DNA of 35,376 nt from NCBI RefSeq assembly GCF_000620065.1, contig NZ_JHVI01000032.1:1-35376 (forward strand). Direction: 5' to 3'. Below the pieces are notes generated by a model. The model did no database searches. It saw only the letters and a program-made list of their open reading frames with translations, and was not told the DNA's origin. The position numbers and the translations under genes are program-made. This DNA is from Meiothermus cerbereus DSM 11376 (lineage in GTDB: Bacteria > Deinococcota > Deinococci > Deinococcales > Thermaceae). Of the stretch, positions 17,294-21,493 are shown one piece after another (position 1 is the first letter of the stretch; each line of letters opens with the position of its first letter).

Positions 17294-17968
17294 ATGTCGG
17301 TTGTCGAGCGTATGCAGGCGCAGGTTCGACGGTGGGACGAAACCAACGACCACCGGGCGGTGTTTCTGAGTTGTTATTCCATGATGACCCAGAACATGCT
17401 GGCTGCGCTGGATCAGGGTGCGTTTCAAGACCCAGGCTGGGTAAACCGGCTGCTCCACCACTTCGCCGATTACTACTTTGAGGCGCTCGAGGCCTACGAA
17501 CAAGACCCGCTCACCGCCCCGACGGTGTGGCAGATTGCCCACTACGGCAGCCAGAGCCCCAGCCTGAAAGCCCTGCAAAAACTGCTGCTAGGTTAACGCG
17601 CACATCAACTACGACTTGGTATTTGCCGTAAGCGACCTGCTGCAAGATGAGTGGCTCCTTTTGAGCCCAGGGCAGCGCCAGATGCGTTACGCCGACCACT
17701 GCAAGGTGAACGTGATGATTGCCCAGACCATAGACGCCGTACAGGATCAGGTCATCGAACGCTACGACCCCAAGATGGATCTGGTGGATCGGCTGATGGG
17801 TTCGCTGGACGAGTGGTTGATTTCGCGCCTAATTGCGGGCTGGCGCGACCGGGTCTGGCGCAACGCCCTTGACCGCGGGCAGCCCCCCAGGCCGCGCGTG
17901 CGTTGCTGGCCCAGCAGGTCGAAAAGGCCTGTTTAAAGGTGGCCGATTCGATCCTGCTCCAGCGCTAG
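17294..17968 (+). pseudogene. DUF5995 family gene broken by two frameshifts
   Basis: ATG 17294 follows an AGGGG ribosome binding site and encodes about 100 residues (MSVVERMQAQVRRWDET...), then stops at TAA 17594-17596. The family sequence continues in another frame: GTT AAC GCG CAC ATC at 17592 reads VNAHINYDLVFAV, a hallmark of DUF5995. The break is one extra base or two missing bases near 17591. A second shift lies at the six-C run near 17873-17878: with one more C the frame would read AARALLAQQVEKACLKVADSI and stop at TAG 17966-17968. A 220-residue protein is thus inferred. It lies 46 nt downstream of the hydrolase gene. Decay of the gene or sequencing/assembly error could each explain the two breaks. 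Its function is unknown. Confidence 0.75.
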
Positions 17969-18321: not shown

Positions 18322-20202
18322 TTAATCGGCCTCCCCCTCGAGGTCCGCAGGTGTGGCCTCGAGGGCCGCCTCGCGCGGGGCCTCGGGATAAAACTTTCGC
18401 AGCCTTCCACCAAATAGCCGAACCAGCCTTTGAAAGCGGGGGTCTTCCAGTAGGCTGGCTTCACTGCCGGGTCTGGCCTCGGCCTCCTCTGGCATATCGT
18501 CGGATGGGGGTGCATCAAACGGCGAGTCTTCGGGGCTCCAGGGCTCCGGTTCGGGGGGCTCCAGGGCTGGGCTGGGCGCTTCCTGGATTGCCTCGGCTGG
18601 AGCGGGCCCGCGAGCGGTAGTGGGGGTGGGTTTATCTTCGGGGGGTAGCGGGGGGTGTGCCGGAGCAGGGGAAGGGACGGACTCGGCGCTGGCCGCCGGG
18701 TTGCTGGTGCGCTCGGGTGCGGTGGGCCTGGAGGGACGGGCCGAGGGCTCATCCGCTAGTTTTTTTTTCCCTCCCAGCCTGAGCTCCACCTGCGGGATGC
18801 CCAGCACCTCCTGCACGGCTTTCTGGATATCGCTCAGATGCTTTTGTGCGCCCTGGTGGTGGAAGCTTTTTTGCTCTGGAAACAGCAAAACCAGCCTGTC
18901 TTCTTCGAAACGGGGCTCGGCTTCGCGCACAAAAGCCCGGATGGTGGTCTTTAGCGCCCCCATGACCCGCCGCCACTCCGAGGCCAGGTCGGCCACGCTT
19001 TGCGGGGTGGGACTGGGGGATGCGGGCGCTTCTTCGCGCTCCGGAGGGCGCGCTGTCCGCCCCTCTGGCTTTCTGGGTCTGGGGTCAAACTCGGGGATGG
19101 CCGGGGTGCTGGTTGGGGTGGACGGGGCTGTTGGGGCAGCATGCAGGGCCTGAAAGGCGCTCAGCACGGCCAGCTCGAGCGAGAGGGCATCGGAGCGCTT
19201 CAGGAGGCGCTCCTGGGCCTCGTCCAGCGCGGTCATGGCGGCCACCAGGCGTTCTTCGGGCTGGTTCAGGTGGGGGCCGGTGCCCCCATAGGCGTCAGCC
19301 TGTCCCGAAGGGGATCGTCCAAGCCCCATGCGCCCGTACAGGCCGGCCCGCAGGGCTTCCAGGAGCCCCTGGGCCAGAGTGCGTGCGGCAAACCCCTGGG
19401 CGTAGAGGTGGTGGGCCTGCTCCAGCGCCCGGCGAAGCTGCCCTTGGCCCAGGGCCTCGGCCAGGGCAAACAGGGCTTCCTGGGGGGGCAGCCCCAGGGC
19501 GTCTTCGGTTTGCTTGAGGGTAAGGGGGCCCTCGAGGGTCAGCAGCCGGTCGAGCAGGCTCTCGGCGTCGCGCATGGCCCCGTCGGCCAGTCGGGCCACC
19601 AGCCCAAGGGCAGGAAGTTCGGCCTCGCGGCCCAGACCGGCCAGGATGCGCTGTAGCTTCTCTACAATCTCGGCCTCGGAAAGCCGACGAAAGCGGAAGT
19701 GCTGGGTGCGCGAGAGGATGGTGGGGGGCATCCGCTCGGGTTCGGTGGTGGCGAAGATGAAAATCACGTGCGGGGGGGGTTCCTCGAGCGTCTTCAGCAG
19801 CGCGTTGAAGGCGCTTTTGGACATCATGTGGGCCTCGTCGAGAATCACCACCTTGTGGTTGCCCAGGATGGGGGCCAGCAAGATTCGCTCGCGCAGGTCG
19901 CGCACGTCTTCTACCGAGTTGTTGGAGGCGGCGTCAATTTCCAGCACATCGGGATGACGCCCCTCCCGCACCAAGCGGCAACCTTCGCAAACCCCACAAG
20001 GTTTCGGGTTCTGGCTGCAATTGACGGCCTGGGCAATCAGCCGGGCGCTGCTAGTTTTCCCCACCCCTCTAGGCCCCGAAAACAAATAGGCCTGCGCTAG
20101 CTTGCCCTGCCGGAGTGCATTCATCAGCACTTCTTTGACATGCTCCTGCCCCACCATCTCGTCGAAGGTGGTGGGACGGGCCTGGCGGTAGAGCGCACTC
20201 AC
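18322..20202 (-). CDS. dnaX: DNA polymerase III subunits tau and gamma
   Basis: This is the clamp-loader ATPase of the replicative polymerase. From GTG 20202 it has 626 residues and begins MSALYRQARPTTFDEMVGQ, as Thermus DnaX does; ATG 20223 would add seven residues. Walker A is GPRGVGKTS (43-51), a four-Cys zinc site is C62, C69, C72, C75, Walker B is LDEAH (121-125), and sensor 1 lies in TILSRTQHF. After residue 370 comes a Pro/Ala/Glu-rich linker, then a helical tau part (RRVMGALKTTIRAFVREAEPRF) and another Pro-rich linker. It ends in DPRFQRLVRLFGGRLRKFY. An A9 run at codons 479-481 probably gives the shorter gamma form. The start follows the Y-family polymerase gene by 64 nt on the same strand. 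No ribosome binding site is clear. Confidence 0.95.
   Translation of the reverse strand: MSALYRQARPTTFDEMVGQEHVKEVLMNALRQGKLAQAYLFSGPRGVGKTSSARLIAQAVNCSQNPKPCGVCEGCRLVREGRHPDVLEIDAASNNSVEDVRDLRERILLAPILGNHKVVILDEAHMMSKSAFNALLKTLEEPPPHVIFIFATTEPERMPPTILSRTQHFRFRRLSEAEIVEKLQRILAGLGREAELPALGLVARLADGAMRDAESLLDRLLTLEGPLTLKQTEDALGLPPQEALFALAEALGQGQLRRALEQAHHLYAQGFAARTLAQGLLEALRAGLYGRMGLGRSPSGQADAYGGTGPHLNQPEERLVAAMTALDEAQERLLKRSDALSLELAVLSAFQALHAAPTAPSTPTSTPAIPEFDPRPRKPEGRTARPPEREEAPASPSPTPQSVADLASEWRRVMGALKTTIRAFVREAEPRFEEDRLVLLFPEQKSFHHQGAQKHLSDIQKAVQEVLGIPQVELRLGGKKKLADEPSARPSRPTAPERTSNPAASAESVPSPAPAHPPLPPEDKPTPTTARGPAPAEAIQEAPSPALEPPEPEPWSPEDSPFDAPPSDDMPEEAEARPGSEASLLEDPRFQRLVRLFGGRLRKFYPEAPREAALEATPADLEGEAD
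18760..18768 (-). other. A9 slippage site of dnaX (gamma production)
   Basis: On the coding strand nine A follow GGGAGGG and encode Lys479-Lys481. One added A gives K-T-S-G and then TGA, while one lost A gives Asn and then TAG. Either shift ends translation within a few codons and would yield a gamma protein of about 481-484 residues, against 626 for tau. Thermus dnaX is known to use transcriptional slippage on an A9 run for the same purpose. The GGGAGGG just upstream could also act as an internal Shine-Dalgarno-like stimulator. Confidence 0.8.
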
Positions 20203-20266
20203 GGGTTCTAGCTTAAGGCCCATAGCCCAAAGCGCAAAGCTGGGGGGCAGCCGGGCCGCCAGAATG

Positions 20267-21493
20267 CTAAATATCCGGTAGATCCAGGTCGGGGATGCGG
20301 CTAAAGGCAATGCGGGTCACGGCGCTTTGCTCGGTGCGGTGCATGCCGGCAAAGTAGAGGGCCTGGGGGCCGTATTTGCCGTTGGCCTGGTCCATGGCAC
20401 GAGCTAGCCGTACCAACTTCTGGTCGGACTCAAACAGCGGCCAGCTCAGCTCGAGCTCGGGAATCAGGTGGCCCAGGACAATACCCACCTTGAAGGGGGA
20501 GCCCTCGGGTTTTTGCTGCCAGAGCTGCAGGCTAACCCGCAGGAGGCTCAGGGTGTCCTGGCTGGGCTGGATGCGGCTATGGGCCTCCCAGCTGCGCTTT
20601 TCGGCGCCTTCCAGAAAGCGCACAAACAGGGCTACAGAACCCGCCCAGTAGCCTTCGTGGCGCAGGCGGGCTGCCGCACGATGCACCAGCCGGGTGAGCA
20701 CCGCGCGGGCCCCGGCCTCGCTACGAAATACCGGGGGCAGCACGTGCGAGTGGCTCAGGCTGCGCCGCCGGGTAGGGGCTTCGGGCAGGTCGGCCCCGCG
20801 CAGGCGATGCCACCAGCTAAAGCCGTGAATCTGACTGCCCCAGACCCGCGCCAGCTGCTGCACAGAAAGCCGGTAGAGCTGCTCCACGCTGGTTACACCG
20901 TGCTTGAACAGGCGCTGCTCCATGTTGGGGCCAATGCCCGGCAGATCGCGCAGGTGCAGCGAATAGAGCCGATGGGGCAGGTCGGAGAGCTGCAGCAGGG
21001 TCAGGCCGTCGGGTTTGTGCATCTCGGCGGCCACCTTAGCCAGAAACCGGTTGGGCCCCAGCCCCACCGAACAGCGAAGTTGATCCCCGACGTGCCGGTA
21101 GATGGCCTCTTTGACCTGTTCCCCTAGCTTTCGGGCGTGAGCAGGCTCTTTTTCCCGGCCCATCAGCTTGCAGACCATCTCGTCAATCGAGAGCACCGCC
21201 TCCACTGGCAGTACCGTATCTACTGCCCGCAGAATCTGGTGATGAATGCGGATGTACTCCTTGGGGCGGGCCTCGACGACTTCTAGCTTGGGGCACAACA
21301 GCCGGGCATCCTGTACCTGTGTCCCGGTCTTGATGCCGTAGCGCTTGGCCTCGTAGCTGGCGGCGATGCAGCAGGTGGTCTCGGCCAGCATGGGCACCAC
21401 CGCCACGGGCTTGCCGCGCAGCTCGGGCCGGAGCTGTTGCTCCACCGAGGCAAAATAGGAATTCATGTCCAGGAACAAGTAGTTGATGCCCAT
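20267..21493 (-). CDS. Y-family DNA polymerase (Pol IV-like)
   Basis: The 408-residue translesion polymerase shows the catalytic palm motifs: FLDMNSYFASVEQQ at residues 7-20, with D9 as metal ligand, and VLSIDEMVCKL near residue 101, with the Asp-Glu pair. CSVGLGPNRFLAKVAAEMHKP and a helix-hairpin-helix LRDLPGIGPNMEQRL follow, then a little-finger domain with RRRSLSHSHVLPP. Both acidic sites are intact, so it should be active, unlike ImuB-type proteins. It lacks an obvious C-terminal clamp-binding motif, although the end (IPDLDLPDI) could serve. GGAGG lies 5 nt before ATG 21493. A palindrome at 21539-21552 upstream may control it. The closeness to dnaX suggests co-transcription of repair and replication functions. 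Confidence 0.88.
   Translation of the reverse strand: MGINYLFLDMNSYFASVEQQLRPELRGKPVAVVPMLAETTCCIAASYEAKRYGIKTGTQVQDARLLCPKLEVVEARPKEYIRIHHQILRAVDTVLPVEAVLSIDEMVCKLMGREKEPAHARKLGEQVKEAIYRHVGDQLRCSVGLGPNRFLAKVAAEMHKPDGLTLLQLSDLPHRLYSLHLRDLPGIGPNMEQRLFKHGVTSVEQLYRLSVQQLARVWGSQIHGFSWWHRLRGADLPEAPTRRRSLSHSHVLPPVFRSEAGARAVLTRLVHRAAARLRHEGYWAGSVALFVRFLEGAEKRSWEAHSRIQPSQDTLSLLRVSLQLWQQKPEGSPFKVGIVLGHLIPELELSWPLFESDQKLVRLARAMDQANGKYGPQALYFAGMHRTEQSAVTRIAFSRIPDLDLPDI

Follow-up and report, generated by a model that had tools for sequence, protein, structure and literature searches.

Putative programmed transcriptional slippage at a nine-adenine run in dnaX of Meiothermus cerbereus, with an apparent recurrent reversal of the DNA-encoded product among Thermaceae

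Transcriptional slippage in dnaX of Thermus thermophilus was reportedly described by Larsen et al. in 2000, and the dnaX site of Escherichia coli has a conserved internal Shine-Dalgarno sequence at about 10 nt. As given in passages of later sources, the T. thermophilus gene slips at nine consecutive adenines (A9), the short form making up about 50% of the product (PMC1088944, PMC5009743), its slippage being also described in part of a further paper (PMC4320859). The relevant passages of Atkins et al. 2016 (PMC5009743) tell of T. thermophilus dnaX mRNAs with extra As, suggest that two tRNA-Lys anticodons, UUU and CUU, may be relevant to polymerase slippage in that species, point out that at an efficiency near 50% the roles can be swapped by a single nucleotide, and link E. 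coli gamma to Pol IV function. Extracts of Antonov et al. 2013 (PMC3711429) take shifts of opposite sign within a single gene family to indicate transcriptional realignment as against ribosomal frameshifting, and describe dnaX fs-genes with gamma in frame and tau produced by recoding, the run being A10 in 9 of 17. Portions of two other papers have the tau C-terminal domains of E. coli and Taq sharing no homology (PMC4703070) and the length of Deinococcus radiodurans dnaX as unsettled (PMC11219805).

Both the slippage mechanism and the reversed, gamma-in-frame type of dnaX are already published. A full-text search of one library, for dnaX with Meiothermus and for Meiothermus with transcriptional slippage, found no paper. 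The locus considered here would carry productive RNA polymerase slippage, of which Thermus is the textbook example, over to a Meiothermus genome.

The dnaX run and its setting

The window, i.e. the whole stretch of 35,376 nt from Meiothermus cerbereus DSM 11376 that was analysed (contig NZ_JHVI01000032.1), carries a dnaX gene (NCBIfam PRK14963, E 9.7e-242; TIGR02397 dnaX_nterm, E 2.4e-108) whose product has the Pfam clamp-loader domains (AAA+) and a C-terminal tau extension. Besides the GTG start used here for numbering, ATG at 20223 or TTG at 20310 could serve as in-frame starts.

18322..20202, minus strand: dnaX, full-length (tau) frame, 626 codons plus stop, GTG start at 20202
18769..18996, minus strand: DnaX_C, residues 403-478, the last globular domain that the predicted gamma would retain
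18769..18775, minus strand: Gly-Gly codons just ahead of the run (GGGAGGG), unconserved among relatives
18760..18768, minus strand: putative A9 slippage run, codons 479-481, AAA AAA AAA; A9 or A10 in 44 of 44 Thermaceae loci spanning the site
18756..18758, minus strand: TAG, at which A8 (or A11) transcripts stop; the A8 product, 481 aa counted from GTG, ends ...GGKKN
18749..18751, minus strand: TGA stop for A10 transcripts; product ...GGKKKTSG, 484 aa from GTG
18325..18759, minus strand: tail specific to tau, 145 codons, rich in Pro/Ala/Glu and for the most part predicted to be disordered
18412..18465, minus strand: C-terminal helices and motif of the tail (within LEDPRFQRLVRLFGGRL), which the predicted gamma would lack

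The plus strand at 18760-18768 reads TTTTTTTTT, i.e. A9 on the minus strand, positioned where the DnaX_C domain of the 626-codon gene ends and in phase as GGA GGG AAA AAA AAA CTA GCG GAT GAG (a recoded version of the run is AAGAAGAAG). The first-pass annotation had claimed a nine-A run in dnaX at this place, GGGAGGG directly before it and stops within four codons in both alternative frames; all are present on the minus strand, the A8 reading ending ...GGKKN and the A10 reading ...GGKKKTSG. Of all codon positions in the window's dnaX, 0.5% have a stop at four codons or fewer in both other frames. Its description of the tail also holds, there being 32 Pro, 24 Ala and 20 Glu among 145 aa, a length greater than the 63-133 aa of all 23 Thermus genomes measured.

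Genome-wide, A9 occurs 3 times on both strands of 3,034,817 bases, exact A8 runs number 49 (55 placements less 2 per A9 run) and exact A7 runs 356. The two A9 runs outside dnaX lie only in Pfam-less reading frames (they overlap five mechanical ORFs of at least 60 aa, with Pfam matches in 0 of 5), so dnaX has the sole A9 in a recognisable gene of this 3.03 Mb genome. A genome-wide depletion of A9 was considered, with 3 seen against about 7 extrapolated from the exact A7 and A8 counts; the shortage is mild and is not leaned on.

An AlphaFold model built on an alignment of the window protein with 31 relatives (32 sequences) is of high confidence for the greater part of the AAA+, collar and DnaX_C regions, and its pLDDT falls under 50 where the Lys run begins, at residue 479. 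Pfam places DnaX_C (PF20964, E 1.1e-22) at residues 402-497, and the region aligns to the Thermus tau C-terminal chain 4iqj_M, which covers DnaX_C and, judged by eye, the terminal motif of the tail. The tail is predicted to be disordered except for short helices at 580-585 and 588-597 (mean pLDDT 70-76), which lie within EDPRF..L..LFGGRL, a motif recurring order-wide and conserved in alignment A1. Since the run stands at the end of the last predicted domain, gamma would keep DnaX_C and lose the flexible linker and the terminal motif. In some of 25 loci of other phyla the DnaX C-terminus is related-looking by eye (VVEIFDGEL or AQALFGDVV).

Very probably, then, the site is one of programmed transcriptional slippage (realignment), A9 giving tau and other lengths gamma. 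RNA polymerase on nine template Ts would make mixed mRNAs with 9 plus or minus n As; those with 9 (or 12) would be read through to tau, and those with 8, 10 or 11 would meet a stop in one to four codons and yield a gamma made up of the ATPase, collar and DnaX_C domains without the flexible tail of 145 residues or the conserved terminal motif that goes with it. What is established is the run with its phase and its two stops, conservation within the family, and the domain boundary as set by Pfam and predicted structure; we infer that slippage occurs, how often, and that the clamp loader takes up both forms. Thermus-like slippage, as the first-pass annotation proposed, is thus the best reading and is backed by the family-wide comparison below, though its statement that the mechanism had been shown to extend to this genome asked more of sequence than sequence alone can give.

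As to the neighbourhood, a Y-family DNA polymerase gene (IMS, Pol IV-like) lies on the same strand 64 nt upstream of dnaX, at 20267-21493. An IMS polymerase is directly upstream in 11 of the 17 Meiothermus loci with at least 250 upstream bases and in 0 of 70 other loci, an absence weakly tested in that only 14 of the 70 have at least 1200 upstream bases. On the plus strand the ORF list, taken by itself, suggests that 17294-17596 and 17616-17936 are two pieces of a single small-protein gene interrupted near 17596.

The run and its stops among relatives

An order-wide search of 111 genomes gave a match in 105, and 90 loci were analysed, with 15 matching genomes left out. A draw across the class, with Deinococcus in view, brought up genomes of this same order and no others. 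The Thermaceae sample (family f1, in which named records with the same sites indicate that genus g1 is Meiothermus and g4 Thermus) took in 48 of 49 matching genomes; 44 loci span the site, three others (G026, G029, G036) ending before it and one (G025) being broken by a scaffold gap. The run is A9 in 41 of the 44 and A10 in 3. Its codon phase varies by lineage, mostly KKK in Meiothermus and EKK(S/T) in Thermus, and in genus g13 of the sister family f4 it is KKN on A8 (5/5). AAA accounts for 29% of the other Lys codons in the dnaX of 15 Meiothermus genomes and for 13% in that of 23 Thermus genomes. With AAA a minority codon and the phases differing, it is therefore the run itself that has been kept, and not merely lysines.

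The stops are also well represented. A one-extra-A stop is found within 6 codons in 34 of the 35 Thermaceae genomes with tau in frame, the background over all codon positions of these genes being 8.4%, and a one-less-A stop in 24 of the 35 (background 12.6%), the 35 being mutually related so that these counts are not independent cases. In one Thermus genome (G070) the one-extra-A stop is 12 codons from the run, and in 9 of the 35 relatives the one-less-A stop is 24-86 codons off, which counts against the slippage reading. Because the one-extra-A stop is near in so many more genomes than the one-less-A stop, the comparison leans towards extra-A transcripts as the main source of gamma, which agrees with the extra-A mRNAs described for T. 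thermophilus.

Departures from the pattern deserve mention in their own right. Two complete DnaX frames in genus g14 of the sister family f4, of 522 aa (L059, from G018) and 499 aa (L087, from G019), are without an A-run at the gamma/tau junction and apparently specify tau only. In two Calidithermus loci (L025 and L105) dnaX is interrupted near codon 364 by a scaffold gap of 100 N, and what follows is unrelated; DnaX sequence was sought in every frame past the gap in G025 and none was found. Several further Thermaceae assemblies break off in the same part of dnaX, perhaps on account of the repetitive Pro/Ala-rich linker. Further afield, in two Fibrobacterota MAG loci (L159, L166) dnaX has A9 at about codon 380, its DNA frame ending after 411 or 405 aa and the one-less-A frame running to 472 or 462 aa with an acidic C-terminus common to both, a possible independent case of slippage.

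Gamma written in the DNA

Which product does the DNA spell? In 6 of the 41 Thermaceae genomes whose frame is intact up to the run the DNA frame is that of gamma, tau requiring a shift of +1 nt in G027, G031 and G033 and of -1 nt in G023, G054 and G055, the latter three carrying A10. Another three (G060, G062, G068) were rejected as shifted-frame genomes and are not among the 41 because their protein is already out of frame before the run, breaks that resemble assembly error. On a quick maximum-likelihood tree built from the shared part of the protein, four frame changes are needed, and the starred branches force four. Records with the flipped sites are those of M. rufus DSM 22234 (L100), a Thermaceae MAG (L101), M. 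granaticius NBRC 107808 (L102) and T. brockianus YIM 77927 (L111); they are probably the same assemblies as the flipped genomes and so no independent check, and each flipped genome is a single assembly.

By dN/dS, a crude test of selection on tails this short, the tau-frame tail gives 0.25-0.55 in six pairs that include a flipped genome and 0.29-0.37 in five in-frame pairs. For the last 35-40 codons the values are 0.11 (G031 vs G000) and 0.15 (G023 vs G024); for the last 40 codons they are 0.63 in G054-G050 and 0.71 in the in-frame pair G050-G065, where few changes are available, and the whole-tail value of 0.54 for G054-G050 comes with little divergence. The pair G033-G027 has no estimate because a contig end cuts the G027 tail at 27 codons. 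The terminal motif is retained in the five flipped tails not so cut, and the shifted tails look to be still coding and under constraint.

Flips of this kind in Thermaceae are what role reversal by one nucleotide near 50% efficiency predicts. On balance we incline to the view that in this family the DNA frame is nearly neutral and has switched at least four times between tau-written and gamma-written, with opposite shift signs, while selection maintains the run of As, the stops close to it and the tail that is out of frame. If true, several species with dnaX annotated as gamma only would rely on RNA polymerase slippage for the tau of their replisome, and genes like that of M. rufus may get called gamma only, hiding tau. 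What the family comparison adds to the published cases is apparently a repeated, bidirectional reversal of the DNA-encoded product within one family, with the tail seemingly under selection. Sister species with the frame reversed either way, and sister lineages with shorter runs or none, are natural controls with which cultured strains could directly show whether it matters which product the DNA spells.

Flanking signals, other readings and described systems

In the 60 nt downstream of the window's run there is no RNA hairpin (z +1.8 against base shuffles, +0.9 against dinucleotide shuffles), and no significant fold was found on either side of it; hairpin-aided slippage or frameshifting was for that reason rejected. 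Mean z for the downstream fold is -0.33 in 15 Meiothermus genomes and -0.12 in 23 Thermus genomes, structured flanks (z < -2) being exceptions: downstream in 1 and upstream in 3 of the 15, and upstream in 1 of the 23. GGGAGGG was likewise rejected as a Shine-Dalgarno stimulator, abutting the run and not being conserved in relatives, and probably does no more than encode Gly-Gly. Ahead of the run, close relatives carry GGTGGG, GGCGGG, GCTGGGG or GGTGCAT, most Thermus TCCTGG, and the Thermus genome G070 GGAGGGAG, which is GGAGG-like. No conserved internal Shine-Dalgarno sequence at an E. coli-like spacing was found, GGGAGGG adjoining the run, and the heptamer A_AAA_AAG is absent, the run being followed by C, AAAAAAAAACTAG. 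Among the genome's tRNA-Lys genes both anticodons, UUU and CUU, are represented.

Could the run be an ordinary Lys-Lys-Lys stretch that slips, if at all, by accident, with a gamma that serves no purpose? The A9 of dnaX is the window's only run of A8 or longer, and its bare presence in 35 kb is unremarkable because the two A8 matches observed were reached in 18 of 100 dinucleotide shuffles of the window (mean 0.70). Retention in all 44 Thermaceae loci that span the site, in different phases and against codon usage, together with the adjacent stops and the frame flips with coding tails, nevertheless makes this scarcely tenable. More substance attaches to -1 ribosomal frameshifting on A_AAA_AAA in a uniform A9 mRNA, in the style of E. 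coli dnaX, as the source of gamma: the run contains A-only slippery heptamers, the best-kept stop is in the -1, i.e. the one-extra-A, frame (34/35 within 6 codons), GGAGGG is upstream with G070 also GGAGG-like, and a passage of PMC4320859 states a translational frameshift signature for the T. thermophilus gene. Against ribosomal FRAMESHIFTING, however, there is no downstream hairpin at the window site, GGAGGG abuts the run and is unconserved, the heptamer is other than A_AAA_AAG, and tau of the A10 genomes G023, G054 and G055 would call for the opposite shift. With opposite shift signs among the flips RNA polymerase slippage therefore fits better, and we regard the ribosomal route as unlikely.

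The flips themselves might reflect DNA-level phase variation or homopolymer assembly error and not compensated transcriptional slippage. Homopolymers do mutate and get mis-sequenced, and the pre-run breaks in G060, G062 and G068 resemble assembly error; yet one flip is common to G027 and G033 and another to G054 and G055 (identical across the shared protein part), and G031 is still A9, differing in upstream bases and not in homopolymer count. Such an origin is in our estimation highly unlikely, and it would weaken, not replace, the slippage reading of the window's dnaX.

A contrasting picture comes from family f5, Trueperaceae by named matches, whose dnaX has A6, A7 or (once) A9 right before an in-frame stop in 21 of 26 loci, often as ...AAAAAA(A)GNNTGACGGGG. 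Downstream folds in these 21, the loci with at least 6 A before the in-frame stop (3 of the other five are cut by the end of the stretch), have a mean z of -1.6, with 7 of 21 below -2. In such loci, e.g. L060, L061, L064, L065, L120 and L129, the longer frame is usually open after a -1 shift, and the gene looks like a candidate for ribosomal frameshifting with gamma in frame.

How, finally, does transcriptional slippage at the window's run compare with what has been described? The E. coli case, a -1 programmed ribosomal frameshift, concerns the same gene and likewise yields tau and a shorter gamma, but it employs the A_AAA_AAG heptamer, a spaced Shine-Dalgarno sequence and a hairpin, which the window's dnaX is without, and the gamma predicted here differs in retaining the DnaX_C domain. 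The dnaX fs-genes of Antonov et al. 2013 have the architecture of the six flipped relatives, and a possible overlap of flipped Thermaceae with that gene set is to be borne in mind, whereas the window's gene is of the ordinary tau-in-frame type. Closest is T. thermophilus dnaX: an orthologous gene, A9, tau in the DNA frame and both other frames stopping nearby. It differs in phase (EKK in the Thermus genus g4, KKK here), in its stops and in its tail (63-133 aa in 23 g4 genomes against 145 aa); and slippage that has been measured in T. thermophilus is what we infer for M. cerbereus.
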